In this document: one piece after another, positions 7,058 through 41,816 of the stretch
Position numbering within the stretch: position 1 is the stretch's first letter
Layout of the letters: every line of letters starts with the position of its first letter
Source: Patescibacteria group bacterium
Lineage (GTDB): Bacteria; Patescibacteriota; JABMPQ01; JAHIRA01
Direction of reading: 5' to 3'
Length of the DNA: 41,816 bases
Assembly (NCBI GenBank): GCA_018818205.1
Contig: JAHISJ010000006.1
Span: 1 to 41,816, forward strand
Notes under the pieces: generated by a model
The model's input: only the letters and a program-made list of their open reading frames with translations
Database searches by the model: none
Told to the model about the DNA's origin: nothing
Position numbers and translations under genes: made by a program

Positions 7058-7783
7058 ATGAACCATGCTACTCGGTTTTCCGGAAAGATTGGCGAGGACT
7101 ATGCACTTTTTATGCTGGCGGTCCCGCATCACGAAGAATTTCAAGATAGTGTAGCAGCAATACTCAAAAATTATTGTCAAAATGTGCACGCAGGCAAACC
7201 AGTCGTTGTTGTAGAGGTAGGTTGTGGAACTGGATATACTACAAGACGAATTTTGCAGATTTCTAGTGTACGTGTGGTAGCGGTTGATAATGAAGAGCAA
7301 ATGATTTCTCAGACGCGGCGAAACTTATCTGACAATAGTGAAGGGGAAGGGAGTCTTGAAGTCCTATGTGCAGATGCACTAGAATATCTAAAAACACTTC
7401 CAGAAAACTCAATTGACGCGCTGGTTTCAGCGTATGCTATCCATAATTTTACTCCTTTGTATCGCAAAACTTTTTTTGAAGAAGTGGCAAGAGTGTTAAG
7501 GGAAGGAGCTTTTTTCATCAATGGTGACAAATATGCGCGAGATGATTGTGCCAGTCATAAACGTGATTTAGATGAGCAGATTGCCAGACTTCAGGTTTTT
7601 AGAGAACCTCATATTGACAGACCGGATTTAACTATAGAGTGGACAAAACACTATTTGGAGGATGAACTGACGCGAATTACAGAATCAGAGCAAAGGGAAC
7701 TGTTAGAATCTTGTGGTTTTACAGAAGTTAAATATGTGTATAGGAAAGGCATGGATGCAATTGTAATAGCTCAAAAGAATTAA
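7058..7783 (+). CDS. class I SAM-dependent methyltransferase
   Basis: The 241-residue protein has the Rossmann methyltransferase core. Motif I VEVGCGTGY is at 52-60, an acidic residue ends strand 2 (VVAVDNEEQ, near 84-92), and motif IV/post-motif SAYAIHNFTPLYR lies near 128-140. The C-terminal region is mixed helix and strand with no named substrate domain, so the methyl acceptor cannot be told from sequence. It is not a CheR: the CheR N-terminal helical domain is absent. It follows the secreted beta-rich gene by 79 nt and is probably read from the same promoter. Two hairpins follow. Confidence 0.85.
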   Translation: MNHATRFSGKIGEDYALFMLAVPHHEEFQDSVAAILKNYCQNVHAGKPVVVVEVGCGTGYTTRRILQISSVRVVAVDNEEQMISQTRRNLSDNSEGEGSLEVLCADALEYLKTLPENSIDALVSAYAIHNFTPLYRKTFFEEVARVLREGAFFINGDKYARDDCASHKRDLDEQIARLQVFREPHIDRPDLTIEWTKHYLEDELTRITESEQRELLESCGFTEVKYVYRKGMDAIVIAQKN

Positions 7784-7969: not shown

Positions 7970-8362
7970 ATGTCAGAAAAGAAAAGAACAATTTTGGTTG
8001 TAGAGGACGACAAATTTCTCTTAAAGGTGTTAGATGACAAATTGAGTCGAGAAGGATACACAGTACTGGTGGCTCATGATGGAAATGAGGCAATGATGAA
8101 GTTTAAAAAAGGGCCACTTCCAGATCTTGTCCTTCTTGATTTAGTCATGCCTTTTAAGAGTGGTTTTGAGGTACTGGAAGAAATGCAAGCGAGCAAGAAG
8201 CTCAAGAAGATTCCCGTTATTGTCGCGTCAAACTTGGGACAAGACAGTGACGTAGAAAAGGCAATGGATCTTGGTGCGGTTGATTATCTCATTAAGTCAG
8301 ATTTCACTATCTCTGAAGTAATTGCTCGTATGGAAAAACAGCTCCCACCAAAGAAAAAATAA
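7970..8362 (+). CDS. single-domain response regulator heading the pilus operon
   Basis: The 130-residue protein is a lone receiver domain. Acidic pocket EDD is at 12-14, the phospho-acceptor Asp is at 57 in LLDLVMP, and the usual Thr/Ser switch position lies in IPVIVASNLGQ. The Lys motif region reads YLIKSDF. It lacks an output domain, like PilG/PilH or CheY. It is the first gene of the pilus operon, 23 nt before pilB, so it probably works on pilus motor or assembly proteins. The S-N-L-G-Q variant of the switch region is shared with the response regulator at 38540 in the chemosensory operon. The kinase is not adjacent; CheA at 35738 is the only candidate in the window. Confidence 0.9.
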   Translation: MSEKKRTILVVEDDKFLLKVLDDKLSREGYTVLVAHDGNEAMMKFKKGPLPDLVLLDLVMPFKSGFEVLEEMQASKKLKKIPVIVASNLGQDSDVEKAMDLGAVDYLIKSDFTISEVIARMEKQLPPKKK

Positions 8363-11680: not shown

Positions 11681-14440
11681 ATGTATATGGAAAAAAAACA
11701 AAAAGGGCAAACTCTTGTAGAGATAGTACTCGCAGTTGGTATTTTTGTTACGCTTGCTGGTGGTATTACAGTGCTTGTTTTGGGATCATTGCTTTCCGAA
11801 AGACAGGGAGGCGAGTTGACTCAAGCTACGTCTTATATGCAAGAAGGGTCAGAAGCAGTACGGAGTATTGGTGAAGAGGCGTGGAATAAACTTGCGTATA
11901 TGGATGATGGCGCAACGCATGGTCTTGATAACGGTTCAGGTGTGTGGGATTTCTCAGGTACGAGTAATACAGATGGAAAATATACTCGAACCATTGATGT
12001 AGACTCAGTTACGCGTGATGGCGGTGGTGACATTAACCCGGGCACAAACGATCTAGAAACGAAAGAAATTACCGTAACTACCGATTGGGATTTTGCACCG
12101 GGGAGACCAAAGCAAACGGTCTCGGTGTATAATCTTACCAATTGGAACAGGGGGCTATGGACAGAAACTACCGATGCTGATTTTAATGATGGAACATTCT
12201 CAAATACGGTAGCAAATAGTGATACTCTTATCCTGTCGGGAAGTGGAGGAACAACCGACTCAAATAGCTGGGATTTTAGCACGAGCGGTGAGTATACATT
12301 TGATCCGCTAAAAATAGAAGTGACTGGAGGTCAGGCGAGTTTGGTTGGATCGGGAGGAACAGTAAGTGGTTCAACTACAGACCCCGGGTTTGATACTGGA
12401 GCACCTTGGACAAGCGGTACGTGGGATCAAGGGGGAAGTGATTATGTGTTCAACAATAGGTACCCAACCTATGGGAATCCCACGTGGTGGGTCTACAGTT
12501 ATTTGCGGGGAAGAAATAATGCTGAACTGGGAGGATACTGGCAGCAGGCATTTACAACCACAGTTGACGATCCTGATGTATCGGTTACCTTGGATTACCA
12601 ACCATGGACTCGTACATTGCAAGCAAATGATCATGGATATTTCTATGCTTTTGTCGATAGTTCACCCGGTGCTCCCGCAAGTCCCGGTAACGCAGTATGG
12701 TCACATGAATTTGTTGCCGGTGATCCGGTACAAACATGGGTAACGGGTAACACTTTCACCGATAGTGGGAATGTGACTACAGCTGGTACGTATTACTTAA
12801 AGGTTGCTTTGTGGCTTGATAATAGAAATGCGGGAGGAAATCCTTATCGGTATTTACTTGGCGGATATGATAATGTTCAGCTTGATTGGACCAAAACAAC
12901 AGTGCCAACGTATCCATCTGATAATCCACCGATTAACCCAACTGGCTCATGGGACCCCGACAATAAAGTGGTGACGTGGACTTCATTCACTGAAACGGCC
13001 ACAAAAAATGGCGGTGAAATCTATTATCAGTTATCCTCAGACGGGGGAACGACGTGGCAGTACTGGAATGGCTCGGCATGGGTTACAGTGGTTGGTGCAA
13101 CTGATTATAATACCGCTTCCCAAGTAAATAGTCAGATTACCTCTTTTGATACTTCTACCGGGATTATTATGTTTAAGGCGTTCTTGTCATCAGATGGGAC
13201 ATACGATGTTTTATTGGACAATATAGATATTACTGCAGAGATTGAAACGATTACTATGGAAGTTGGGGAAGTGACTACCGATGAAACGTGGGCAACAGTT
13301 AGTACGGCAAATACGTATACGTCTCCGGTGGTCACAGCGTTATATGAAGAACAAACCGGTTCCAATGCAGCGTATTCAGTTTCTACTCGGGTAAGAAATG
13401 CCGGGTCAAACAGTTTTCAAATCAGAATCGAAGATCCATCTGGAGCAGATCTGGGGGATAGTCGAGTTAGATATATTGTGATGGAAGAAGGTGCATGGGA
13501 TATGGGTTCGACCAAAGTTGAGGCGCATAAAGAATCCATAGCAACTGTTGCACGTAAAAATAATTGGATTGGAGATAATAAGGGGTACGATCAAACGTAT
13601 GCCAGCAACCCCCTCGTGTTGCATCAAGTTATGAGTGATAATGATACACGGTGGATAGAGTCCTGGGTTTCAAGTCAGGGGAACAAAAATGACCCTCCTA
13701 ACACTTCAGGATTTCAGATTGCTATGAATGCAGCGGAAGTGGCTGCTTCGTATGCGCACAATCCTGAAATACTTGGTTGGATTGTTGTGCAGGCAGGTCA
13801 AGATGATTCTATTGATGGTAACAATTTTAGGACAAGGATAACAGGCGATACTGTCAGGGGGCATGCCAACGGTTGCTATAATCAAAATTATGGCACGACC
13901 TTTATCTCTCCGTATGTTGTTGCAGATCAGGAGACAATGGATGGAGGAGATGGAGGGTGGCTCGTTGAGTGTGCGTTATCGGGAACGGCTGTGGGCGTTC
14001 ATGTCGAGGAAGATCAAGAGGGTGACCCGGACAGAAGTCATACAACAGAAATTGCAGCATATGTTGTTTTTGAAGACTCTTTTTCTGTAAGTGGTAAGGG
14101 TGGTTATTCACCATCTGGCACGTATGAGTCTTCTGACTTTGGGACGGCCTCAAATTTTAATCTCATAAAATGGACTGAGACAGTGCCACCAAGTACCGAT
14201 TTACGTGTTCAAATTAAAACCGCCCCAGATGCAAGCGGTTCACCCGGTGCGTGGTCACCGACGTGGTGTGGTCCAGAAGGTGAGGATGGAGATGAAACAG
14301 ATTACTTCACGAATCCTGCAGGAGAGCTTATTCACCCCGACCACATTGGTGATAATTGGATTAAGTATAAATTGTCACTTACCGGACCAGGGAGCGATAC
14401 GCCAATACTTGCTGATATTACGGTGAATTATAAGCCTTGA
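11681..14440 (+). CDS. giant pilin-like surface protein (919 residues)
   Basis: The N-terminus is a prepilin signal, KG|QTLVEIVLAVGIF with Glu at +5 and a hydrophobic helix to about 35. It continues as a helix (SYMQEGSEAVRSIGEEAW) like a normal pilin. Then come about 850 residues rich in Thr, Ser, Gly, Asp and Trp that look like consecutive beta domains, with repeated DGGTTWQYWNG-like and WDFSGT-like elements. The C-terminal module ends in TPILADITVNYKP. Cys are few. By analogy with tip adhesins that carry a pilin stalk, it is probably a pilus-tip adhesin, but the ligand is unknown. Start could also be the second ATG two codons later. It is about five times longer than a usual pilin. Confidence 0.85.
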   Translation: MYMEKKQKGQTLVEIVLAVGIFVTLAGGITVLVLGSLLSERQGGELTQATSYMQEGSEAVRSIGEEAWNKLAYMDDGATHGLDNGSGVWDFSGTSNTDGKYTRTIDVDSVTRDGGGDINPGTNDLETKEITVTTDWDFAPGRPKQTVSVYNLTNWNRGLWTETTDADFNDGTFSNTVANSDTLILSGSGGTTDSNSWDFSTSGEYTFDPLKIEVTGGQASLVGSGGTVSGSTTDPGFDTGAPWTSGTWDQGGSDYVFNNRYPTYGNPTWWVYSYLRGRNNAELGGYWQQAFTTTVDDPDVSVTLDYQPWTRTLQANDHGYFYAFVDSSPGAPASPGNAVWSHEFVAGDPVQTWVTGNTFTDSGNVTTAGTYYLKVALWLDNRNAGGNPYRYLLGGYDNVQLDWTKTTVPTYPSDNPPINPTGSWDPDNKVVTWTSFTETATKNGGEIYYQLSSDGGTTWQYWNGSAWVTVVGATDYNTASQVNSQITSFDTSTGIIMFKAFLSSDGTYDVLLDNIDITAEIETITMEVGEVTTDETWATVSTANTYTSPVVTALYEEQTGSNAAYSVSTRVRNAGSNSFQIRIEDPSGADLGDSRVRYIVMEEGAWDMGSTKVEAHKESIATVARKNNWIGDNKGYDQTYASNPLVLHQVMSDNDTRWIESWVSSQGNKNDPPNTSGFQIAMNAAEVAASYAHNPEILGWIVVQAGQDDSIDGNNFRTRITGDTVRGHANGCYNQNYGTTFISPYVVADQETMDGGDGGWLVECALSGTAVGVHVEEDQEGDPDRSHTTEIAAYVVFEDSFSVSGKGGYSPSGTYESSDFGTASNFNLIKWTETVPPSTDLRVQIKTAPDASGSPGAWSPTWCGPEGEDGDETDYFTNPAGELIHPDHIGDNWIKYKLSLTGPGSDTPILADITVNYKP

Positions 14441-29508: not shown

Positions 29509-31878
29509 ATGAAAGTTTCACTTGATTGGTTAAGCGATTTTGTCGCAATTCCAAAGGATTCAAACAATCTTGCCAAGGAACTCACGCTTAAAACGTGTGA
29601 GGTTGAGGATGTTATCTGTGAAAAAGATCAGTTTGATGGCATTTTGGTTGGTGAAGTGTTAGAAAAAAATAAGCACCCAAACGCTGATAGACTCTCTGTA
29701 GCAACGGTTAACTATGGTGAAGGGAAAGAGACAGTTGTATGTGGTGCGCCCAATTTAAAGGAAGGGCAGCTGGTAGTTTTTGCGACATCCGGAACAGTAC
29801 TTCCCAATGGACTTGAGCTAAAAGAAATTGATATACGAGGAGTTACCTCAAAGGGTATGATCTGTGCAGAAGATGAGGTAGGTCTTTCAGAAAATCATGA
29901 TGAAATTATTGTGTTAGATCCTGATAAAGCAACGGTTGGCATGGCTTTTGCTGAGTATCTTGAGAAGGATGATGTTGTTTTTGAAATAGATAACAAGTCA
30001 ATAACGCATAGACCTGATTTGTTCTCGCATATTGGTATTGCACGTGAAATAGCTGCAATAACTGATACTGAGTTTAATGAGCCAGACTATAACAATGTTA
30101 CTTCAAAAGGGGATGATGCACTCAAAATAGTTATTGAAAATCCAGATGAGTGCTCACGGTATATGGGTCTTGTTTTAAGTAATGTACAAAACACTAAGTC
30201 ACCTGGGTTCATTCAAAAACGATTGTCCGCATGTGGTATGCGCCCGATTAATAGCATCGTTGATATTGCTAACTACGTCATGCTTGAGACGGGACAGCCA
30301 CTTCATACGTTTGACTATGATACTGTTGCTGATGGGAAAAAAGGCAAAGAAGTGCATGTAAGATACGCAAAAAAAGGCGAGACTCTTGAGACGATTGATG
30401 GTGAAACTCGTGAGCTAAAGGAAAGAGACCTAGTTATTGCTGACACACAAAAGCCAATAGCGCTTGCTGGAGTTATGGGTGGTGCAAACACTGAAGTTTC
30501 TGAAGACACACACAAGATTATTTTAGAATCGGCACATTTTAATGGACCAACCGTCAGACGGACTTCATGGCGACTGGGACTGCGGTCTGAGTCAGTGACG
30601 CGGTTTGAAAAAGGACTCCCTCGTGTTCTTCCTGAAAAAGGACTTAAACGAGCCGTTGAGCTACTGATGGAATATGCTGGCGCAACAATTGAAAGTGAAG
30701 TAGCAGATGAATATCCAAATCACTATAAAGAAACTACTATTTCTCTTGATCAAACATATCCTTCTCAACTTCTTGGTATTTCACTGTCAGATGAGATGGT
30801 GAAGAATTCTTTGAGTAAGCTTGGGTTTGGCACCGAGAAAGAGGGAGAAAATAGTGTAGTAACTGTTCCATGGTTTAGAGAGGGGATGACGCTTGCTGAG
30901 GAGGTGGTAGAAGAGGTTGGGAGGATGTACGGGCCAGACAAAATTCAACCAGTGGTGTTTGATATAGAATCTAAACCAACAACAAAGGATCCACTTCTCG
31001 CAATTTCTTCAGAGATTAAGCCACTGCTTGCAGGACTGGGCCTTGATGAACTTTCTACCTACTCTTTTTATGGAGACAAAGAAATCCAAAACTGTCATTT
31101 GAACGTAAAAGACCACTTAAAAATTGCAAATCCTTTTTCAAAGGATTGTCAGTATATGAGAATAAGTTTGCTTCCTAATCTTCTTTCAAAACTTTCATTA
31201 AATTTGCCGTATTTTGAAACACCTCGTTATTTTGAGATTGGTCATGTGTATAGTTTTGATTATGAGGTACACTATGTAGCAGGACTCATTTTTGGAGCAA
31301 AAAAGAGCATCTTCTTTGAGGCAAAAGGTATGCTTGAAACAGTGCTTTCGAGGCTTAACGTACCATATAACACAAAAAAAGAACTTCGTGGGCCCGACTC
31401 CGGCATGCTAGAGGATAATCAGACGCTTATGTATGAATATGATGGTGAGCCGGTAGCGAGACTGAGTGTGGTAAAGAGCGATGTAGTTAAGAGGTTCAAA
31501 GTGAAGAAAGGCTTTGTAGCCACGTTTACCGTTCATTTAGAAAATCTACTTGATGCAAGAGACGAAAAAAGTGAGTATGTGGCTTTACCTAAGTATCCGG
31601 ATGCAAAGCTCGATCTTGCTTTTGTGATTAAGCAGGACGTACCTGTTCAAGAGGTTATTAATGCCATTTTTGAGGTGTCAGGTGCATTTCTTAAAAATGT
31701 CTCTATTTTTGATATTTATAGAGGAAAACCGCTTACTGAGGATGAAAAAAGTGTTGCCTTTCACTTAACCTACAGAAGTAATAAACGGACACTCACTGAC
31801 AAAGAAGTAGAGGAAGTGCGCAAAAATACAGAAAAGAAGCTCATGGTAGAATTTGGAGCTCGTCTTCGGGATTTTTAG
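29509..31878 (+). CDS. pheT: phenylalanyl-tRNA synthetase beta subunit
   Basis: The 789-residue subunit has the full bacterial domain order. EMAP-type tRNA-binding domain at about 40-150 (VGEVLEKNKHPNADRLSV), B3/4 editing domain at about 210-390 (RPINSIVDIANYVMLETGQP), B5 domain at about 405-475, synthetase-like core at about 480-690 and an FDX-ACB anticodon-binding domain at about 695-789 (PKYPDAKLDLAFVI). It starts 18 nt after pheS. Confidence 0.98.
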   Translation: MKVSLDWLSDFVAIPKDSNNLAKELTLKTCEVEDVICEKDQFDGILVGEVLEKNKHPNADRLSVATVNYGEGKETVVCGAPNLKEGQLVVFATSGTVLPNGLELKEIDIRGVTSKGMICAEDEVGLSENHDEIIVLDPDKATVGMAFAEYLEKDDVVFEIDNKSITHRPDLFSHIGIAREIAAITDTEFNEPDYNNVTSKGDDALKIVIENPDECSRYMGLVLSNVQNTKSPGFIQKRLSACGMRPINSIVDIANYVMLETGQPLHTFDYDTVADGKKGKEVHVRYAKKGETLETIDGETRELKERDLVIADTQKPIALAGVMGGANTEVSEDTHKIILESAHFNGPTVRRTSWRLGLRSESVTRFEKGLPRVLPEKGLKRAVELLMEYAGATIESEVADEYPNHYKETTISLDQTYPSQLLGISLSDEMVKNSLSKLGFGTEKEGENSVVTVPWFREGMTLAEEVVEEVGRMYGPDKIQPVVFDIESKPTTKDPLLAISSEIKPLLAGLGLDELSTYSFYGDKEIQNCHLNVKDHLKIANPFSKDCQYMRISLLPNLLSKLSLNLPYFETPRYFEIGHVYSFDYEVHYVAGLIFGAKKSIFFEAKGMLETVLSRLNVPYNTKKELRGPDSGMLEDNQTLMYEYDGEPVARLSVVKSDVVKRFKVKKGFVATFTVHLENLLDARDEKSEYVALPKYPDAKLDLAFVIKQDVPVQEVINAIFEVSGAFLKNVSIFDIYRGKPLTEDEKSVAFHLTYRSNKRTLTDKEVEEVRKNTEKKLMVEFGARLRDF

Positions 31879-31901
31879 CTCTATAAAAAATAAAAACCAC
31901 C

Positions 31902-31930
31902 TTGAAAAGATTTGAGAAATATGCTATAAT
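31902..31930 (+). promoter_or_regulatory. strong promoter of the chemosensory operon
   Basis: TTGAAA (31902-31907), a 17-bp spacer and a perfect TATAAT (31925-31930) with TG one base upstream (extended -10). It is the best promoter in the window by eye. Confidence 0.85.
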
Positions 31931-31935
31931 GTATG

Positions 31936-31960
31936 CATACTTCTTCAAGTATGAAGTTTA
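31936..31960 (+). other. leader hairpin with an alternative fold
   Basis: CATACTT (31936-31942), loop CTTC, AAGTATG (31947-31953) forms a 7-bp stem at the very start of the che transcript. ACTTC (31939-31943) can instead pair with GAAGT (31953-31957). The two stems exclude each other. A role in mRNA stability or control is inference. Confidence 0.4.
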
Positions 31961-31979
31961 AAACAAATAACAAATAGCA

Positions 31980-33248
31980 ATGGTGATAGCGATATTACAT
32001 TACGGGCAGACGGTACTAGTATTGTTTGCATTTGGCATTGTGTACTATCTTCTTGTCAAAACCCATATTATGAATAGATTGGCTAAGCTGTTTGGTATAC
32101 GGTCGTTTAAGCGCACAGTGAGTTTTTCTGTTGTTGTACAAGTTTTTCTTTCTTTGTTCGCGTGTGCACTCATTTATCTATTTTTTGGTTTTGACTTGGT
32201 TAATGTGATTTTGTGTTTTCTTGGATTTATTATACTTGCGCTTCTTTCTGCATCTGGCGTGTCTGACATTATTTTGGAGCCGATTCGAAGAGACGTAAAA
32301 AAAATAAGTAATGCTGCGGAAGCATTGCGTCGATTCTCTGAACTATCACTTGAGGCAGCACAGCGCAATACAACAGTCACGGAACAGATGGCTGCAGGAG
32401 CGCTTCAACAATCAAAGCAGTCTGATGAGGTTTCACAAGAGATCGCAGTACTTGCATCAACTATTCAACAGATATCATCCTCTGCTCAGGAAGTCTCAAA
32501 TGGTGCAACAGAGACTTCTCAGATGATTCAAAATGCTGGGGAAAGTAGCGAAAAATCTCAAAAGAGCTTAGATCAAATCAAAGGTACGGTTGATAATTCA
32601 TCTGTGATGATTAAAAAGATGTCTGAGCGTTCAGAAGAAATAGGTGAGATTGTAGAAACAATCACTGATATTGCAGAACAAACTAACCTCCTTGCATTAA
32701 ACGCTGCGATTGAGGCTGCTCGCGCTGGAGAAGCGGGGAGAGGATTTGCAGTTGTTGCTGATGAAGTTGGAAAGCTTGCCGAGGGTTCTGGAAAGGCCGC
32801 GCGAGAGATCAAAGATAGAATTCACGAGATGACACAGCAAATAAACGAAACGGTTGAAGCTGTAGAGACCGGTAAGATTTCTGCTGACAAGAGCTCAAAA
32901 GTTATTAGCGAGACATTGCTTACTTTACAAAGTGTAGCTGCAGCAATTCAGCAGGTTTCGGTGAAGATTCAAGATGTGTCAGCAGGTGTACAGCAACAAT
33001 CTACTTCTGTACAAGAAGTAGCAAAGACAATAGACGGCATGGCTGCTGTTGCGGATCAAAATACCTCTGGAGCAGAACAGCTTTCTGCTGAGACACAAGA
33101 GCGTAGTGCTGACTATGAACAGATTAGTTCGACTGCTAGAGAGTTAAATACATTATCTGACGAGCTTTATAAAGTTGTGGACGGTAAGGAAAAACAAGAG
33201 AACATAGTAAAAAGTGAACCGCAAAAGGATACTTCTCATAAAAAATAG
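31980..33248 (+). CDS. methyl-accepting chemotaxis protein without a sensor domain
   Basis: The 422-residue protein has three membrane helices in its first 95 residues (about 8-27, 47-69 and 72-94) with only very short loops outside. A helical connector ([11 protein letters not shown]) leads into a cytoplasmic signalling coiled coil. The conserved tip is [20 protein letters not shown] followed by [16 protein letters not shown] (about 235-270), which binds CheA and CheW. No Cache, PAS or four-helix ligand domain and no recognisable HAMP is present, and there is no C-terminal tether pentapeptide for CheR/CheB. It therefore probably takes its input from another protein; the H-NOX protein at the end of this operon is the obvious candidate. 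Confidence 0.92.
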
Positions 33249-33299
33249 ATGTTCGGCACTGCTTTGGTTATTTTTTAATGTGAATAATCGCAAAAAAGA

Positions 33300-33845
33300 A
33301 TGGATTCTTTAAATGAAACATCTAAAGATGAAGATCAAGATACCAAAGCAGACGTGATTCAGCTTGTTGTTTTTGAACTTGACTCAGAGGAATATGCGGT
33401 AGAAATAACAGACATACGTGAGATTGTACGAATTCCAGAAATTACCCCAGTTCCCGATGCACCAGCGTTTATTAAAGGTATATTTAATTTACGAGGACAA
33501 ATTGTAGTTGTTTTGGACTTAGAAAAAAAATTTGGTCTAAAACGTGAACATACAAAACTTTTTGAGCATGTTGTAATTTTAGAAAGTGGTAAGAGTGTAT
33601 ATGGTGTTTTGGTTGATACGGTCCTTGAGGTGCTTCGCGTTTCTAAAAAGTCAATAAAGAATACTCCTGACCTCGTGACAACAAAGATTCATACGGACTT
33701 CATTAAAGGTATAGTTGTTATTGATAAAAAGAAAAAGAAAGAAAGCAGAATTATTGTACTACTTGATCTACTTAAGGTTCTTAATGAAAAGGAACTTTTG
33801 AAGGTTGAAAAGAGTGTAGCAAAAGAAAATAAGAGAGAAAAATGA
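33300..33845 (+). CDS. cheW: chemotaxis coupling protein CheW
   Basis: The 181-residue protein has one CheW domain (about 18-165): LVVFELDSEEYAVEITDIRE, then IPEITPVPDAPAFIKGIFNL and RGQIVVVLDL, the classic double-barrel signature. The N-terminus is acidic and the C-terminus strongly basic, both longer than in a minimal CheW. It links the MCP to CheA in the array. Its last four bases overlap the start of the next gene (ATGA). Confidence 0.95.
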   Translation: MDSLNETSKDEDQDTKADVIQLVVFELDSEEYAVEITDIREIVRIPEITPVPDAPAFIKGIFNLRGQIVVVLDLEKKFGLKREHTKLFEHVVILESGKSVYGVLVDTVLEVLRVSKKSIKNTPDLVTTKIHTDFIKGIVVIDKKKKKESRIIVLLDLLKVLNEKELLKVEKSVAKENKREK

Positions 33846-34261
33846 ATGAAATAGACAACGCATATAAGGTGTATTTAGAAGAGGGAAATCTTATTGTTGT
33901 CGATTTTTTAATTGATGTTCCTGAAGAAAATGGTGAAGACGTTGCTGTTGCAGAAGCGATAGGGAGAGAGGTTAATACTATCTTGCGTAGAAATCCTACA
34001 AAGCAATTCAAAGTGCTTGCGAGTACACTAGCTCTTGGTAAAGACACCGGCAATGTTTCAAAAGAAGCCCGGGGAGTGTATGTTGCTATTATCTCAAATG
34101 ATCAAATCGAAAAAACCGCATTTGTTTCTGCAAGTTCATTTTTAACTATTGTTGCTACATTTGTTTTTCAAGCTGCTGGGAGAAGTAATAAGGTCAAATT
34201 TTTTAAGGAAAAAGAAAAAGCTCTTGGATGGTTACATGAAGGAGATGATGAAGATAACTAA
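33842..34261 (+). CDS. STAS/SpoIIAA-like protein in the che operon
   Basis: The 139-residue protein has a beta-alpha pattern like SpoIIAA/STAS-related proteins: YLEEGNLIVVDFLIDV, then an acidic helix (ENGEDVAVAEAIGREVN), a core strand KVLASTLALGK, SKEARGVYVAIISND and a final FKEKEKALGWLHEG helix that matches the ending of SpoIIAA-like lipid/STAS domains. The family call is by pattern only. It overlaps cheW by four bases, so it is translationally coupled and very likely part of the signalling machinery. It is an unusual member of a chemotaxis operon. Confidence 0.6.
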   Translation: MNEIDNAYKVYLEEGNLIVVDFLIDVPEENGEDVAVAEAIGREVNTILRRNPTKQFKVLASTLALGKDTGNVSKEARGVYVAIISNDQIEKTAFVSASSFLTIVATFVFQAAGRSNKVKFFKEKEKALGWLHEGDDEDN

Positions 34262-34279
34262 TATAATGAAAATAGCCAC

Positions 34280-34645
34280 ATGCAAAAAGATATAAAAGTA
34301 CTTCTTGCTGACGATTCAGCGTTTATGAGAAAAATACTAAGAGATATTCTTGAACATGAGGGGTATTCTCATTTTATTGAATGTGCAGATGGTGAAGAGT
34401 GTATTGAAAAAAGTAACTCAGAAAATCCTGATTTGATTTTTTTAGATATTGTTATGCCCAAGATTGATGGTATTGAAGTACTAAAAAGAGTTGGGAGAAA
34501 TTATAATGTTATTGTAGTCAGTGCAATAGGTCAAGAAAAAACAAAAGAAATGGCTAAAGATTTAGGAGCAAAAGGGTACATTACTAAACCGTTTGATTGG
34601 AAGCAGGTTTCTTCCGAGATAAAGAAACTATATCCTGAATCGTGA
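34280..34645 (+). CDS. cheY: response regulator CheY
   Basis: The 121-residue receiver has the acidic pair DD at 11-12, phospho-acceptor Asp 56 in FLDIVMP, switch Ser in VVSAIGQ and Lys in GYITKPF. The sequence, with DDSAFMRKILRDIL at its start, is close to CheY from non-enteric bacteria. It is the canonical output of CheA, and CheC at 37417 would dephosphorylate it. There are no flagellar motor genes in the window, so its target may be the type IV pilus machinery. Confidence 0.93.
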   Translation: MQKDIKVLLADDSAFMRKILRDILEHEGYSHFIECADGEECIEKSNSENPDLIFLDIVMPKIDGIEVLKRVGRNYNVIVVSAIGQEKTKEMAKDLGAKGYITKPFDWKQVSSEIKKLYPES

Positions 34646-34666
34646 ACATAGTACTAAGAAGAGTAG

Positions 34667-35731
34667 ATGCCCACAAATGAACAAAAAATTCGAGTACTAA
34701 TTGTTGATGACTCATTTCTTATGCGTCGTCTTTTAACTGACATCTTGAATTCGGACAAAGAGATTACTGTTGTTGGTAGTGCAAAAAATGGTGAGGATGC
34801 CATAAAAAAGATACGATTGTTTAAGCCCAATGTAGTCACAATGGACTATCATTTACCTGATATGTCTGGAGCAGACATTACTCGTAAAATACTTTCAAAA
34901 AAATCACTACTGCCGGTAGTTATTATGGTTTCTGCTTATACAAAAAAGGATGCAAAGGAAACCTTAGAGTCATTAGACGCAGGTGCTGTAGATTACATTG
35001 AGAAGCCTTCCGGAGAAGTATCGCTTGATTTAGATTCAGTCAAGGAGAGTATTATTAAAAAAGTTAAGGAACTTTCCAAGGTAGGCATGAATGGTCCTGT
35101 GAGGCCTACGGTGCAAAAAAAGAAAAAGAAAAAGAGACCAAAAACAATTTATTCGATTGTGATAGGTGCATCAACAGGAGGTCCGGTAATGCTTGAAGAT
35201 ACCATTTCTCATTTATCAATAAATATAGATCTACCTATATTTATTGTGCAACACATGTCAAAGCATTTTACTGCTGAGCTTGCCAAGAGACTCAATTCTA
35301 AAACTGATGTACCTGTTTTAGAAATTTCGGATGGGATGCATATTCAACCTGGAACAGTGTATGTAATGCCTGGGGGGTATCATTTATTATCTTTCAGAAA
35401 CACAAGAGACGGAAAAAAAAGCGAGCTGATTGCCAGAATAGAAAAAAGAACATCAAAAAATGGTAATTGTCCATCAATAGATGAGGTCATGTGTGCGGTT
35501 GCAAAACAATATGGTTCTCGAGTGCTTGCTGTAGTTTTAAGTGGTATGGGGAAGGATAGTGTTGAGGGTGTGACAGCAATTAAAAAAGAGGGAGGCTACT
35601 GTATCACACAAGATCCAAGTACCGCACTTATTGCGTCTATGCCTAATGCAATTATAGAGAAGGGACTTGCAGATGAGATACTTTCTCCAAAAGAGATAAC
35701 GCAAGCAATAAAAGAAATTGCTCGGAAGTAA
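34667..35731 (+). CDS. cheB: chemotaxis methylesterase/deamidase CheB
   Basis: The 354-residue protein has a receiver domain (about 7-125, phospho-acceptor Asp 60 in TMDYHLP, EKPSG at its end), a basic KKKKKKRPK linker near 150 and a methylesterase domain. The catalytic Ser 169 is in IGASTGGP, the catalytic His is in FIVQHMSKHF, and the Asp region is LSGMGKDSVEG. It removes methyl groups from, or deamidates, MCP signalling helices. The partner methyltransferase CheR is absent from the window. Confidence 0.96.
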   Translation: MPTNEQKIRVLIVDDSFLMRRLLTDILNSDKEITVVGSAKNGEDAIKKIRLFKPNVVTMDYHLPDMSGADITRKILSKKSLLPVVIMVSAYTKKDAKETLESLDAGAVDYIEKPSGEVSLDLDSVKESIIKKVKELSKVGMNGPVRPTVQKKKKKKRPKTIYSIVIGASTGGPVMLEDTISHLSINIDLPIFIVQHMSKHFTAELAKRLNSKTDVPVLEISDGMHIQPGTVYVMPGGYHLLSFRNTRDGKKSELIARIEKRTSKNGNCPSIDEVMCAVAKQYGSRVLAVVLSGMGKDSVEGVTAIKKEGGYCITQDPSTALIASMPNAIIEKGLADEILSPKEITQAIKEIARK

Positions 35732-35737
35732 AAGAAT

Positions 35738-37408
35738 ATGGATTTATCAAATTATACAGACGTATTTATAACTGAGGAGAAGGAATGCTTACGTGGGATA
35801 AGTGATGGCTTGTTAGTGCTCGAGAAGAAGAAAGATGAAGAAACACTCAATGAGCTCATGCGCCTTTCTCATACCATCAAGGGCGGATCCTCAATGATGG
35901 GGTACACAAAATTGGCCTTTTTGGCGCATGTTATGGAAGATGTATTTGATTATGCTCGTCATGGGCTTCTCGAAATAACTTCTGAAACTATAGATGAACT
36001 TTTTTCTGCCGTGGATGCAATGCAAAAGTCGCTTGATTCCGTAAAGAAAAAGGGAACAGAAATGGATCTTACTTCAGTGTCTAAAACTATTAAGGAGATT
36101 ACCGGTGTTCGGACAGTTGGGACGGGCAAATCAAGACGGACAAAAAAGGGTATGCCAAAACATGCAAAAAAAAGCCCAGAAAAGAAATCAAAGAAAAAGG
36201 TGTTGAAAGAAAGTAAAGAAGCAAAAGATTCACTATCTAAACTCTCGGAAGAAATAATCCAGTATTCCTATATCAAGGTACCCGTAAAGAGGCTAGATGC
36301 AATGGTGGATTTAGTAGAAGGATTGCTCATAGATAAGATGCGTTTGGAAAATTTACCTGACCAAGGGCCTGAATTAAAAAAAAATATTGCACATCTAAGT
36401 AGGCAAATTTCTGATATACAATATGAAATTATGCAAGCACGACTTGTTCCGATTTCTCAAGTGTTTGATTATTTTCCTCGAATGGTACGAGATCTTGCTC
36501 GGGAGAAAAAAAAGAAAATCAATCTTACCATTTTAGGTGGTGCTATGGAGCTTGACAGAACGGTTCTTGATAAGCTTGCTTTACCACTTATTCACTTAAT
36601 CAGAAATGCAGTTGACCACGGCATTGATAAGAAAGGAACAATCAAAATAATTGCTATGCGAGAGAGGAACAATACCACCGTCGCTGTAGAAAATGATGGA
36701 AGATCGATTGATCTTGAAAAAGTGAAGGAATCTGCACTAAAGAGAGGGATTATATCTGAAAAAAAACTTTCTACATTCTCAGATGAGCAAGTGATGAACT
36801 TGATTTTTAATCCAAATTTATCGACCAAGGAAAAAGTTACAAAAACATCAGGGAGAGGAGTAGGCATGAGCGTAGTGAAAAACTTTGTAGAGCAAGTCGG
36901 GGGGAAGATAGTTATACGGTCGCCACTTAACGGAGGAGGTACTCGTGTGACACTTGAATTGCCGCTAACGCTTGCGATAATCAATGCATTGCTGGTTACG
37001 GTATCTAATGAGACTTTTGCAGTTCCTTTTACGTCAATTGAGCGTTCTGTTTTGGTATCTTCTCAGGACATTAAAAGTCTTGGTGATCAAGATGTGGCGG
37101 TTGTTGATGGTGCGGAGATTCCTCTTTTTTGGACTGAGAAGGTTTTTAATTTAGAGAGAAAACATGTTTCTTCCCGTACGGATAGAAAAAATTTGGTAAT
37201 TATTGTTAATGATGGAGGTGAACGAGCAGGAATAATCGTTGATAGTCTGGTAGGTGGAAATGAAATTATTGTTAAGCCCCTTGCGGCGATACTCAGAAAA
37301 GTCGGTTATTTTTCTGGTTCAACAATTCTGGGTGATGGCAAGACGGTACTCATTATTGATGTGCCAGGTTTGCTTGAAGATAAAACAAAGCTTTTAAGAG
37401 TAACATAA
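35738..37408 (+). CDS. cheA: chemotaxis histidine kinase CheA
   Basis: The 556-residue protein has an Hpt (P1) domain with the phosphorylated His 45 in LSHTIKGGSSMMGY, a basic linker (about 125-165) with no recognisable P2 domain, a P3 dimerisation helix pair (about 175-240), a P4 kinase domain (about 240-410) and a P5 CheW-like domain (about 412-550). In P4 the N box HLIRNAVDHGI and G2 box SGRGVGMSVVK are intact. The G1 box reads ENDGRSID, with Asn 319 and Ser 323 where most CheA have Asp and Gly. Without P2, CheY must dock directly on P1 or P4. Genes on both sides are within 10 nt. Confidence 0.96.
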   Translation: MDLSNYTDVFITEEKECLRGISDGLLVLEKKKDEETLNELMRLSHTIKGGSSMMGYTKLAFLAHVMEDVFDYARHGLLEITSETIDELFSAVDAMQKSLDSVKKKGTEMDLTSVSKTIKEITGVRTVGTGKSRRTKKGMPKHAKKSPEKKSKKKVLKESKEAKDSLSKLSEEIIQYSYIKVPVKRLDAMVDLVEGLLIDKMRLENLPDQGPELKKNIAHLSRQISDIQYEIMQARLVPISQVFDYFPRMVRDLAREKKKKINLTILGGAMELDRTVLDKLALPLIHLIRNAVDHGIDKKGTIKIIAMRERNNTTVAVENDGRSIDLEKVKESALKRGIISEKKLSTFSDEQVMNLIFNPNLSTKEKVTKTSGRGVGMSVVKNFVEQVGGKIVIRSPLNGGGTRVTLELPLTLAIINALLVTVSNETFAVPFTSIERSVLVSSQDIKSLGDQDVAVVDGAEIPLFWTEKVFNLERKHVSSRTDRKNLVIIVNDGGERAGIIVDSLVGGNEIIVKPLAAILRKVGYFSGSTILGDGKTVLIIDVPGLLEDKTKLLRVT

Positions 37409-37416
37409 GTAAAAAT

Positions 37417-38034
37417 ATGGCTTATTTAAGTGAAGAAGAAAAGGATCAACTTATTGAGGTAATTAATATCGGGGTTGGAAACGCATCAACAGCACTCTCT
37501 CAAATGGTAAATGAGCAAGTTACGCTTTCCGTTCCTGAAATGTATGCCGGTCCGGTAGAAAATGCATTGGATTTTATTGGTGAATCAGAGCAGGTTCAAA
37601 CGGCGGTACTGTTTACAGTTTCTGGCGATATTGATGGTATGATGTTTCTTATTTTTTCATCTGAAGATGCGCTGAAATTGGTGCAATTGGTATCAAAGCA
37701 GTATAATCAAGAAAAGAGTATTACCAAAGGTTCAAACGAGTCTGCACTAAAAGAAATAGGTAACGTGCTTCTTGGTCCAGCACTTGGGGCACTTTCACAT
37801 TTTCTTGATGCACATATTGTTCAATCTGTTCCTGAACTTGCAAGCGATATGCTTGACTCGGTTATTGATGAAGCATTATCTGAAGTGCTTAAATCTTCAA
37901 AAGCGGCAATGATTTTTAAAACAGAATTCTCAGTAAAAAGTAAGGATATTTCTGGCCATTTTTTCTTCCTTTTTGAGCCAAAGGCGACCGATGAGATTTT
38001 GAAGATGATTAAAGAAAAGTACACTACGAGCTAG
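37417..38034 (+). CDS. cheC: CheY-P phosphatase CheC
   Basis: The 205-residue protein carries two copies of the CheC/CheX/FliY phosphatase motif. The first is DQLIEVINIGVGNAS (D-x3-E-x2-N pattern) near residues 10-24. The second is SALKEIGNVLLGPAL near 109-123. Two active sites indicate CheC and not CheX. It would dephosphorylate CheY-P and bind CheD, encoded 9 nt downstream, giving the adaptation loop known from Bacillus and Thermotoga. Confidence 0.94.
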   Translation: MAYLSEEEKDQLIEVINIGVGNASTALSQMVNEQVTLSVPEMYAGPVENALDFIGESEQVQTAVLFTVSGDIDGMMFLIFSSEDALKLVQLVSKQYNQEKSITKGSNESALKEIGNVLLGPALGALSHFLDAHIVQSVPELASDMLDSVIDEALSEVLKSSKAAMIFKTEFSVKSKDISGHFFFLFEPKATDEILKMIKEKYTTS

Positions 38035-38043
38035 AAAAAGTAT

Positions 38044-38535
38044 ATGAGCAATACAGTAAAAATTGGTATTGGAGAACTTGCGGTTGGAAAAGGGAGGGAA
38101 TGTATTAAGACAAGTGGAGTTGGGTCGTGTGTAGTTATTGCTTTATATGATCCTGATGTCAAGGTTGGTGGCTTGGCACATGCAATGCTTCCGACAAACA
38201 AAATAAGTGGAGACAAAGAGACTAAAAACAAGAGTGTACATTTAGAAAAGACGGCAAAATATGTTGATGAAGCTATACGAGAGCTCATTTTGACAGTAGA
38301 AAAAAAGGGAGGCAAGAGAGAACGACTGAGCGCTAAACTTGTTGGCGGTGCTCAAATGACCCCTCTTTTTGGAGGATTAAAAGAGAGTATTGGAGTTGAA
38401 AACGTACGTGAAGCGAGAAAACAACTTAAAGCGTATGCAATTCCACTTGTTAATGAGGATACCGGAGGGTCAATTGGTAAGCTTATAGAGTTTTATTCAG
38501 ACAGTGGACTTTTGAAGATAACATCAATGATATAA
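38044..38535 (+). CDS. cheD: receptor deamidase CheD
   Basis: The 163-residue protein has the CheD signature: TSGVGSCVVIALYD with catalytic Cys near 29, GGLAHAMLP with catalytic His near 45, and the KLVGGAQMTPLF region near 98-109. It deamidates specific Gln residues in MCPs and is modulated by CheC. Together with CheB it could set receptor activity even without CheR. It starts 9 nt after cheC and ends 4 nt before the next gene. Confidence 0.95.
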   Translation: MSNTVKIGIGELAVGKGRECIKTSGVGSCVVIALYDPDVKVGGLAHAMLPTNKISGDKETKNKSVHLEKTAKYVDEAIRELILTVEKKGGKRERLSAKLVGGAQMTPLFGGLKESIGVENVREARKQLKAYAIPLVNEDTGGSIGKLIEFYSDSGLLKITSMI

Positions 38536-38539
38536 TCAT

Positions 38540-38905
38540 ATGAAGGTACTTATAATAGACGATGATACATTTGTTCGAACCGTTTATAATTCACTTTTGA
38601 CCGAAGAGGGATATGAAGTGTTGCAAGCTGCTGATGGTGAAGAAGGGTTTAAGGAGTTAAGGAAGAGTAAACCTGATATTGTGCTTCTTGATATGATTCT
38701 TCCCAAGATGACCGGTTTTGATGTATTGGAGAAAAAGAGAAAAAATGCGTCGATTAAATCTATTCCAGTGATCGTGATTTCTGATTTAGGCCAAAAGAAT
38801 GATATTGATCGTGCAAAAAAACTAGGTGCACGTATGTATTTACCAAAAGGGGAGTATTCGCCCAATGAAATTGTGACAGAGATTAATAAGTTAACCAAAA
38901 AATAA
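38540..38905 (+). CDS. second single-domain response regulator of the che operon
   Basis: The 121-residue receiver has the acidic cluster IIDDD at 5-9, phospho-acceptor Asp 51 in LLDMILP, IPVIVISDLGQ in the switch region and YLPKGEYSPNEIV at the Lys position. It differs from the CheY at 34280 (VVSAIGQ, YITKPF) and is closer in these motifs to the receiver at 7970 (ASNLGQ, YLIKSDFTISEVI), which opens the pilus operon. It may be a separate output or a phosphate sink. Its neighbours cheD and the H-NOX gene are 4 nt and 1 nt away. Confidence 0.93.
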   Translation: MKVLIIDDDTFVRTVYNSLLTEEGYEVLQAADGEEGFKELRKSKPDIVLLDMILPKMTGFDVLEKKRKNASIKSIPVIVISDLGQKNDIDRAKKLGARMYLPKGEYSPNEIVTEINKLTKK

Positions 38906-38906
38906 G

Positions 38907-39434
38907 ATGAAAGGTGTTATTGTCAGTTGTTTCGAAGAGCTGGTAAAAGAAAAATTTGGGCAGGACAAGTGGGATGAGATTCTTGATAAAGTAGGGATAG
39001 ATAAAGGTAAGCGTGTTTTTCTAGCGACAGAAGATATTGATGATGCTGCAGTTATGAATGTTTTAGATAAGACGTGCGAAGTTCTTGACATGTCAGTAAA
39101 CGATGTGACTGATGCGTTTGGTGATTACTGGGTAAACAGTTACGCGCCACGGTTTTACAAAATTTATTTTAATCAAGCTCACTCAGCAAGAGAATTTTTA
39201 CTTAATATGGATAACGTGCATATAGCGACAACTAAAAGCATTGCCAACGCACATCCACCTCGTTTTGAGTATGAATGGAAAGATGATAATACACTTATTA
39301 TGACGTATAAGTCGGAGCGAGGTCTCATCGATCTTTTTATCAGTCTGGTAAAAGGAGTTGGTAAACATTATCACGAGGATTTGAAGGTAACAAAATTGGA
39401 CAACAAGAAGGTAGAGATAGTTTTTCCTTCGTAA
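38907..39434 (+). CDS. stand-alone H-NOX heme gas-sensor protein
   Basis: The 175-residue protein matches the H-NOX (HNOB) domain over its full length. The start MKGVIVSCFEELVKEKFG is the family N-terminus. The predicted proximal heme ligand is His 105 in LLNMDNVHIATT, and the heme-propionate motif YxSxR is Tyr 134, Ser 136, Arg 138 in TYKSERGL. PP at 117-118 matches the family's conserved Pro. No effector domain is attached. Known H-NOX proteins bind NO, and some bind O2 or CO, and pass the signal to kinases, cyclases or fused MCPs. Here it is the last gene of a che operon whose MCP lacks a sensor, so it probably acts on the MCP or CheA. Confidence 0.88.
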   Translation: MKGVIVSCFEELVKEKFGQDKWDEILDKVGIDKGKRVFLATEDIDDAAVMNVLDKTCEVLDMSVNDVTDAFGDYWVNSYAPRFYKIYFNQAHSAREFLLNMDNVHIATTKSIANAHPPRFEYEWKDDNTLIMTYKSERGLIDLFISLVKGVGKHYHEDLKVTKLDNKKVEIVFPS

Positions 39435-39475
39435 ACAATCATTATCTCTGTTGCTTCTGATACAAAGAAGTCACC

Positions 39476-39504
39476 TTGTTTGAGACAAAAAGAAATGATA
39501 CAAT
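39476..39504 (+). promoter_or_regulatory. promoter of gyrB
   Basis: TTGTTT (39476-39481), a 17-bp spacer and TACAAT (39499-39504) with TG before the -10 (extended). The leader before ATG 39545 is about 34 nt. No terminator is evident for the che operon in the 110-nt gap. Confidence 0.65.
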
Positions 39505-39529
39505 ATATAAAAGTTTCCTTTATTGATAA

Positions 39530-41512
<1,983 letters not shown>

Positions 41513-41539
41513 AAACAATTTCAAAAATAATACAAAATT

Positions 41540-41816
41540 ATGCCACACGAAGGTCAGGGGATGGACCCCTTTGAAGAAGAAGCAAAAAAGTTTAATACAC
41601 AGATGAAAGAAAAAAGACAAGATGAGTATCCGCAAGAAGGAAATGACATGCAAGCAGAAGAAGCTTCATCAGGATTTTCTCAATTTGATGTAAACGTACC
41701 ACTGATGGAACAGAGTTTTGAAGACTTAATCAGAGGTACTGAGGAGTTGATGGCTACAGAACAGGATCCAAAGAGGGTTGAGGAATATCAGATGTTAATT
41801 GACATGTTTAAGCAAG
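41540..41816 (+). CDS. N-terminal part of an unrecognised protein (partial)
   Basis: An ATG 27 nt after the gyrB stop opens a frame that runs off the right edge (92 complete codons). The visible part is hydrophilic and acidic: PFEEEAKKFNTQMKEKRQDEY, a Gln/Glu-rich stretch, then SFEDLIRGTEELMATEQDP and a Glu-rich helix. There is no signal peptide or membrane helix. It may be co-transcribed with gyrB. No function can be proposed. Confidence 0.65.
   Translation, partial: MPHEGQGMDPFEEEAKKFNTQMKEKRQDEYPQEGNDMQAEEASSGFSQFDVNVPLMEQSFEDLIRGTEELMATEQDPKRVEEYQMLIDMFKQ

Follow-up and report, generated by a model that had tools for sequence, protein, structure and literature searches.

What does an uncultivated bacterium with a reduced genome perceive, and what does it control, with a chemotaxis operon that ends in a gene for a stand-alone H-NOX protein? 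This question is raised by positions 31,902 to 39,434 of contig JAHISJ010000006.1 (assembly GCA_018818205.1, Patescibacteria group bacterium). They lie in the window, by which we mean the whole stretch of 41,816 nucleotides that was analysed, itself part of a 110-kb contig. The answer proposed here, tentatively, is a flagellum-independent chemosensory array of the candidate phyla radiation (CPR) that most likely has type IV pili as its output and receives one of its inputs from a soluble H-NOX of the nitric oxide (NO) type. That the chemosensory array is real is close to certain. The gene set is largely intact and ends in a predicted NO-sensing heme protein; the novelty, a variant of known systems, is a CPR chemosensory operon free of CheR and flagellum to which one genome adds a stand-alone H-NOX of the NO type. 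The genome has 1.41 Mb and is 97% complete, and its placement in CPR/Patescibacteria, already made in an initial annotation from the sequence alone, holds by taxonomy labels and small genome size rather than by a marker-gene tree. The nearest genome (G115, JAHIRA010000138.1, deposited as 'Patescibacteria group bacterium') belongs to the same family and another genus, called the sibling genus below. Statements on the genome as a whole are results of family searches. The features of the operon, all on the plus strand, are the following:

31902-31930, plus: promoter-like site TTGAAA-17-TGCTATAAT with an extended -10, by direct reading, 49 nt before the MCP start
31980-33248, plus: methyl-accepting chemotaxis protein (MCP), 422 aa, MCPsignal PF00015 151.5 bits, the only MCP found in the genome
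33300-33845, plus: cheW, PF01584 122 bits
33842-34261, plus: SpoIIAA/STAS-like protein, DUF7793 30 bits (cut-off 26), SpoIIAA-like 21.6 bits, below cut-off
34280-34645, plus: cheY, PF00072 93 bits
34667-35731, plus: cheB, receiver and methylesterase, Response_reg and PF01339 192 bits, NF001965 326 bits (cut-off 293)
35738-37408, plus: cheA with P1, P3, P4 and P5, Pfam Hpt, H-kinase_dim, HATPase_c and CheW
37417-38034, plus: cheC, predicted CheY-P phosphatase, CheC/CheX PF04509 45 bits, NF041093 114 bits, below cut-off
38044-38535, plus: cheD, predicted receptor glutamine deamidase, PF03975 80 bits
38540-38905, plus: stand-alone response regulator, PF00072 87 bits
38907-39434, plus: stand-alone H-NOX, 175 aa, HNOB PF07700 151 bits (cut-off 25.5), residues 2-162

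The ten open reading frames (ORFs) lie on one strand with successive gaps of 51, -4, 18, 21, 6, 8, 9, 4 and 1 nt. Each product matches its expected family, the STAS-like one weakly (Pfam). The MCP, CheW and a CheA with P1, P3, P4 and P5, which form the chemosensory core, are all present. The initial annotation had called the operon complete; all ten genes are indeed there, but the operon has no CheR, and a family search found none in the genome either (best match 16 bits, cut-off 27). The strong promoter and the short spacing that it described were found as well. The promoter-like site combines hexamers TTGAAA (31902-31907) and TATAAT (31925-31930), separated by 17 nt, with TG ahead of the second hexamer; it ranks first of 24 matches in the region and is the sole one at 11/12, and the number of such matches is not above that in shuffled sequences. 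A pattern search of 31500-41600, including the 110 nt between the H-NOX gene and gyrB, revealed no plus-strand terminator.

Regarding the individual proteins, the MCP has about three N-terminal membrane helices joined by short loops, followed by a long signalling coil with a conserved hairpin tip, as judged by hydropathy and direct reading; the middle helix falls just below the hydropathy threshold and was assigned by reading the sequence. Neither a periplasmic domain nor a HAMP match was found (Pfam, hydropathy), and the genome's sole MCP thus lacks a sensory domain, as had been noted. The catalytic Ser, His and Asp motifs of CheB (GASTGG, QHM, LSGMGKD) and the Cys and His motifs of CheD (GVGSCV, HAMLP) are present, and CheC carries two ExxN motifs. 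CheA has its P1 His and intact N and G2 boxes, and its G1 box reads NDGRS for DxGxG in an alignment with other CPR CheA proteins; the sibling CheA has a normal DNGKG there, and those of L040 and L046 are also unusual at this place. The STAS-like protein, whose predicted structure (pLDDT 42) gives no reliable fold, has a homologue of 35% identity on contig L034 of the sibling genome; among the che operons compared, it occurs only in these two genera.

To place the operon within CPR, a sample of 380 CPR genomes was surveyed, with presence defined as a match over the Pfam cut-off. An MCP was found in 14 of them, spread over the phylum, and an H-NOX in two, the window genome and the sibling, both of one family. 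Both genomes with H-NOX also have an MCP (Fisher p 0.0013, the two representing a single family). A common gene order, MCP-cheW-cheY-cheB-cheA-cheC-cheD, recurs with losses (no cheB in G007) and with extra receivers or CheC/X-like genes. The che operon is therefore a module that turns up rarely but repeatedly in CPR, and H-NOX is specific to a single family. Chemotaxis arrays had been described as rare in CPR, which stands, but this one is not singular; only its H-NOX is special. Che synteny recurs across CPR genomes, and linkage to H-NOX is not conserved. Tian et al. counted, on average, 0.7 genes for motility and chemotaxis in a Patescibacteria genome and described the group as nonmotile and lacking chemotaxis (PMC7137472); the figure holds as an average, not for che-bearing CPR genomes. 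A conserved che operon without flagellum or CheR in about 4% of the sampled genomes contradicts the general statement that CPR lack chemotaxis. In the open-access literature, with most subscription papers outside its scope, nothing on point was found for H-NOX with Patescibacteria or for CPR with CheA.

How would such an array adapt? Family searches for CheR covered 15 CPR che-type genomes and 14 control genomes; no real CheR was found in the former, while seven of the controls have one. The only CPR match over the cut-off, a marginal one in G110, was rejected as a generic-looking methyltransferase of 212 aa, and the methyltransferase at 7058-7783 of the window was likewise discarded, with only 13 bits against the CheR profile. 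Adaptation sites were then counted with the consensus [ASTG]2-x2-[EQ]2-x2-[ASTG]2, giving 147 Gln and 21 Glu in 16 CPR MCPs (L034, L039-L050, window) against 18 and 58 in eleven control MCPs. Gln makes up 75% or more of these sites in each CPR MCP and no more than 50% in each control (Mann-Whitney p 1.5e-5, to be read knowing that the sequences are related, that sites within one protein are not independent and that the motif is a consensus). Ten plasmid-borne MCPs and one acidobacterial MCP served as controls, CheR being verified beside only one of them (L038). Because the sites are Gln-rich and CheR is missing while the motifs of CheB and CheD are kept in the window, the sequences suggest that methylation has been lost in CPR arrays and that deamidation by CheB and CheD would be the remaining covalent adaptation. 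Chemotaxis without methylation exists in Helicobacter pylori, where CheR and CheB are both missing (PMC11357200); the unusual part here is that CheB and CheD are kept without CheR. In a wider and rather unlikely scheme, CPR receptors would be made with Gln and converted one way to Glu by CheB and CheD, with receptor synthesis and turnover replacing CheR; in this family NO would also enter through a soluble H-NOX with scavenged heme, tying pili to NO from neighbours or hosts. The Gln-rich sites make methylation-free adaptation directly testable in vitro.

The identity of the last protein of the operon was confirmed in two ways, by the HNOB score and by its fold: the AlphaFold model (pLDDT 84.9) retrieves with Foldseek only H-NOX structures as top matches, with TM scores mostly of 0.72-0.84. 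The heme motif is present (proximal His105, Pro118 and Tyr134-x-Ser136-x-Arg138) and invariant in four relatives. The best PDB sequence matches are of the MCP-fused group of the Caldanaerobacter tengcongensis type (E 1e-18), and Leu143 stands where the O2-binding H-NOX of C. tengcongensis has Tyr140. As O2-binding H-NOX proteins have a distal Tyr and those of the NO type do not (PMC8738867; PMC12329717), NO is the expected ligand, the distal Tyr for stable O2 binding being replaced by Leu143. Of the two signals first proposed, NO or O2, the former is thus retained and the latter is not. On these sequence features, the protein probably binds heme and NO. Membership in the O2-sensing class was rejected because Tyr140 is absent and the 175-aa ORF stands alone without an MCP fusion, and a fusion of H-NOX to the MCP itself was rejected because the two are separate ORFs. 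A tree of H-NOX sequences separates the proteobacterial NO sensors from the proteins of the window, the sibling, WOR-3 and the acidobacterium; it supports neither vertical descent nor a claim of transfer, as it settles neither the order of these four proteins nor the position of the long MCP-fused branch.

The source of the heme requires comment. No ferrochelatase was found in the genome by family search, heme transport and the whole heme pathway not having been searched for, and the heme would therefore probably be acquired from outside rather than made. The same absence might suggest that a genome unable to make heme uses its H-NOX as a heme-free redox sensor, and H-NOX signalling without heme has been published for Vibrio cholerae (PMC7108781). 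The heme-free mode, however, relies on zinc bound by three Cys and one His or Gln (PMC12329717); the present protein contains no Cys other than C8 and C57 and has a fully conserved heme motif, making this a very improbable explanation.

What the array controls is addressed by the pilus genes. At the other end of the window are found:

7970-8362, plus: response regulator directly upstream of pilB, candidate CheA phospho-target, PF00072 78.7 bits
8386-17546, plus: type IV pilus locus 1 with pilB, pilC, pilins and pilM (Pfam T2SSE, T2SSF, PilM_2, N_methyl), no pilT

A second pilus locus, on contig C21, has pilM, pilN/O-like ORFs, pilB, a regulator, pilT (TIGR01420 446 bits), pilC, a pilin and a prepilin peptidase-like ORF; its pilB, regulator and pilT were tested by profile and the other genes were read from the sequence. 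The genome consequently holds pilB, pilC, pilM, pilins and pilT, the set of a retractable type IV pilus. The window had been credited with a full pilus operon, which is correct for PilB, PilC, PilM and pilins but not for PilT, located in the second locus. In the sibling, the regulator lying between pilB and pilT is conserved (77%), the one at 7970 is 40% identical to the regulator of the che operon (38540), and stand-alone regulators adjoin pilB at window 7970-8362, L092:8822-9190 and L098:8253-8639. No FlhA was found by family search in the organism's own class or in the 15 CPR che genomes, in keeping with the earlier statement that the window holds no flagellar gene. Saccharibacteria twitch and bind hosts by type IV pili (PMC12206443). 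We consider an output through pili probable. The output proposed in the initial annotation is in this way strengthened by pili with a retraction ATPase and the lack of FlhA, as a best guess and not a demonstration. Chemosensory systems with alternative functions exist, and since no pilus gene lies within the operon, the array could instead control gene expression or another cell process through its stand-alone regulators. We regard this as unlikely, given a receiver protein in both pilus loci, the presence of PilT and the missing flagellum. Moreover, another CPR che operon, on L042, has a GAF/PAS histidine kinase, two response regulators and a pilin-like ORF behind it (L042:12497-15474). In pilus locus 1, a 919-aa protein with a pilin-like start (window 11681-14440) is possibly a tip adhesin.

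Put together, the proposed mechanism would run as follows. The single sensorless membrane MCP would form an array with CheW and CheA. H-NOX, loaded with heme from outside, would bind NO and alter CheA activity by contact with the MCP, CheW or CheA itself; histidine kinases are the targets of other stand-alone H-NOX proteins too. CheA would then phosphorylate CheY, CheB, the 38540 regulator and perhaps the pilus-locus regulators; the phosphorylated regulators would set the balance of pilus extension and retraction, and CheC would remove the phosphate. CheB and CheD would deamidate Gln-rich receptor sites instead of a methylation cycle. The H-NOX input is favoured because of the tight operon, the 1-nt gap between regulator and hnox and the single promoter.

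The main comparison for this input is with the sibling genus, in which the neighbours of the operon are conserved:

29509-31878, plus: pheT, upstream neighbour, the same in the sibling genus, read from ORF translations
39545-41512, plus: gyrB, downstream neighbour, GyrB 72% identical in sibling contig L115

In the sibling genome, contig L034 carries pheT-MCP-cheW-STAS-like-cheY-cheB-cheA and is broken in cheA, and contig L115 carries cheA-cheC-cheD-regulator-gyrB. The regulator (52% identical to that at 38540, at the equivalent place) is directly followed by gyrB with no H-NOX between, and the sibling H-NOX (52% identical) lies on a third contig among unrelated genes. A contig-end artefact was rejected as an explanation, as L115 is continuous from cheA to gyrB.

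Several observations weigh against the proposed mechanism. The sibling genus has an equivalent operon and an equivalent site without H-NOX, which stands alone on another contig. In the majority of other CPR MCPs, two membrane helices are separated by a stretch of roughly 150-330 residues (matching dCache in three of the four tested), and short sensorless MCPs occur also in the sibling, G029 and G007; because G007 and G029 show no H-NOX match, sensorless MCPs do not require H-NOX. The genome has other HATPase_c proteins, probable histidine kinases, so that CheA is not the sole possible partner, and the altered G1 ATP-binding box of CheA, unlike that of the sibling, means that its kinase activity is not to be assumed. 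With neither ferrochelatase nor, by family search of the genome, COX1/NorB, synthesis of its own heme and turnover of its own NO are not evident. Finally, no linkage of che and pilus genes exists in the genome beyond a shared contig. The earlier proposal that H-NOX supplies the signal to a sensorless MCP is accordingly weakened, by the sibling operon and by the sensorless MCPs of G007 and G029; as a mechanism it is possible, resting on the gene order of one genome, and the link of H-NOX to the operon is plausible but unproven. We rate the step from H-NOX to the array at slightly under an even chance, mainly because operon membership is not conserved in the sibling.

The same data would also suit an H-NOX that is an independent NO sensor, with a partner kinase or other protein elsewhere, having reached the operon end by recent rearrangement and sharing only its expression. 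The sibling arrangement and the additional HATPase_c proteins agree with this, as does the WOR-3 relative, a lone gene among unrelated genes with no che genes on its 3.3-kb contig (L037); annotated plasmid-borne stand-alone H-NOX genes adjoin ATP-binding (kinase-like), GGDEF or EAL genes, not che. It is harder to reconcile with the 1-nt spacing to the regulator and with the fact that neither CPR genome has a kinase adjoining H-NOX. A close H-NOX near a che operon is also found in a second, unrelated lineage: the acidobacterial contig L038, from a metagenome-assembled genome, carries cheR-MCP-cheW-cheY-cheA-cheC, two ORFs (about 1 kb) and then a stand-alone H-NOX of 48% identity, and its MCP likewise has no periplasmic domain. 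L038 gives independent but loose support for an association of che and H-NOX, and the independent sensor remains a serious though less than even possibility. To our knowledge, H-NOX has no phosphatase or kinase activity, which speaks against a further idea, that H-NOX and the 38540-38905 regulator form a two-gene unit in which H-NOX controls phosphorylation or release of the regulator beside the MCP and not through it. This idea would fit the 1-nt gap, and Legionella H-NOX 2 has been discussed alongside a CheY-like gene, the species having no cheA (PMC8738867). As the regulator is kept in the sibling operon without an adjoining H-NOX, it does not need one next to it, and we judge the two-gene unit improbable.

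Among known systems, the MCP-fused H-NOX proteins (Caldanaerobacter tengcongensis type, and Acetoanaerobium L111 in our survey) share the link of H-NOX to chemotaxis signalling; they are described as O2 sensors, whereas the window H-NOX is a separate protein with Leu143 for the distal Tyr. The HnoK systems of Vibrio, Shewanella and Caulobacter likewise have a stand-alone H-NOX without distal Tyr, expected to signal by protein contact. In the window, unlike these, no dedicated kinase lies beside H-NOX, CheA being the sole kinase of the operon, and there is no Cys/Zn site. With the CheC/CheD-type systems of Thermotoga and Bacillus the operon has CheA, CheW, CheY, CheB, CheC and CheD in common, and its CheC and CheD score best against Thermotogales models; it differs by lacking CheR and flagellum and by a single sensorless MCP and Gln-rich adaptation sites. 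The other CPR che operons (G007, G031, G099, G110, G250, G347 and others) have a similar gene order with small variations and neither CheR nor FlhA, but most of their MCPs have a large inter-helix part and none outside the window family has H-NOX. Systems of the Pil-Chp/Frz type likewise combine chemosensory proteins, pilus motors and receivers without a flagellum; here we infer the pilus link, and the Pil-Chp gene set differs from one containing CheC and CheD. The che operon offers a testable route by which an episymbiont could direct its pili, and a stand-alone NO-type H-NOX in such an operon, if true, would mean that receptor arrays can receive gas signals by a new route.

Some minor observations concern related loci. 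A SpoIIAA-like gene (PF11964, L035:3222-3578) faces the lone H-NOX of the sibling; that a SpoIIAA-like protein is also encoded in the family's che operon may be coincidence. Between cheW and cheY, the place of the STAS-like gene in this family, ORFs weakly similar to CheC were found in other CPR operons, at L040:10021-11204, L042:8391-8957 and L049:7591-8181; the one tested had no Pfam match. In G229, L051 shows a different, reduced chemosensory layout, with a CheA-like kinase, a weak MCP-like and CheW-like ORF and a receiver.

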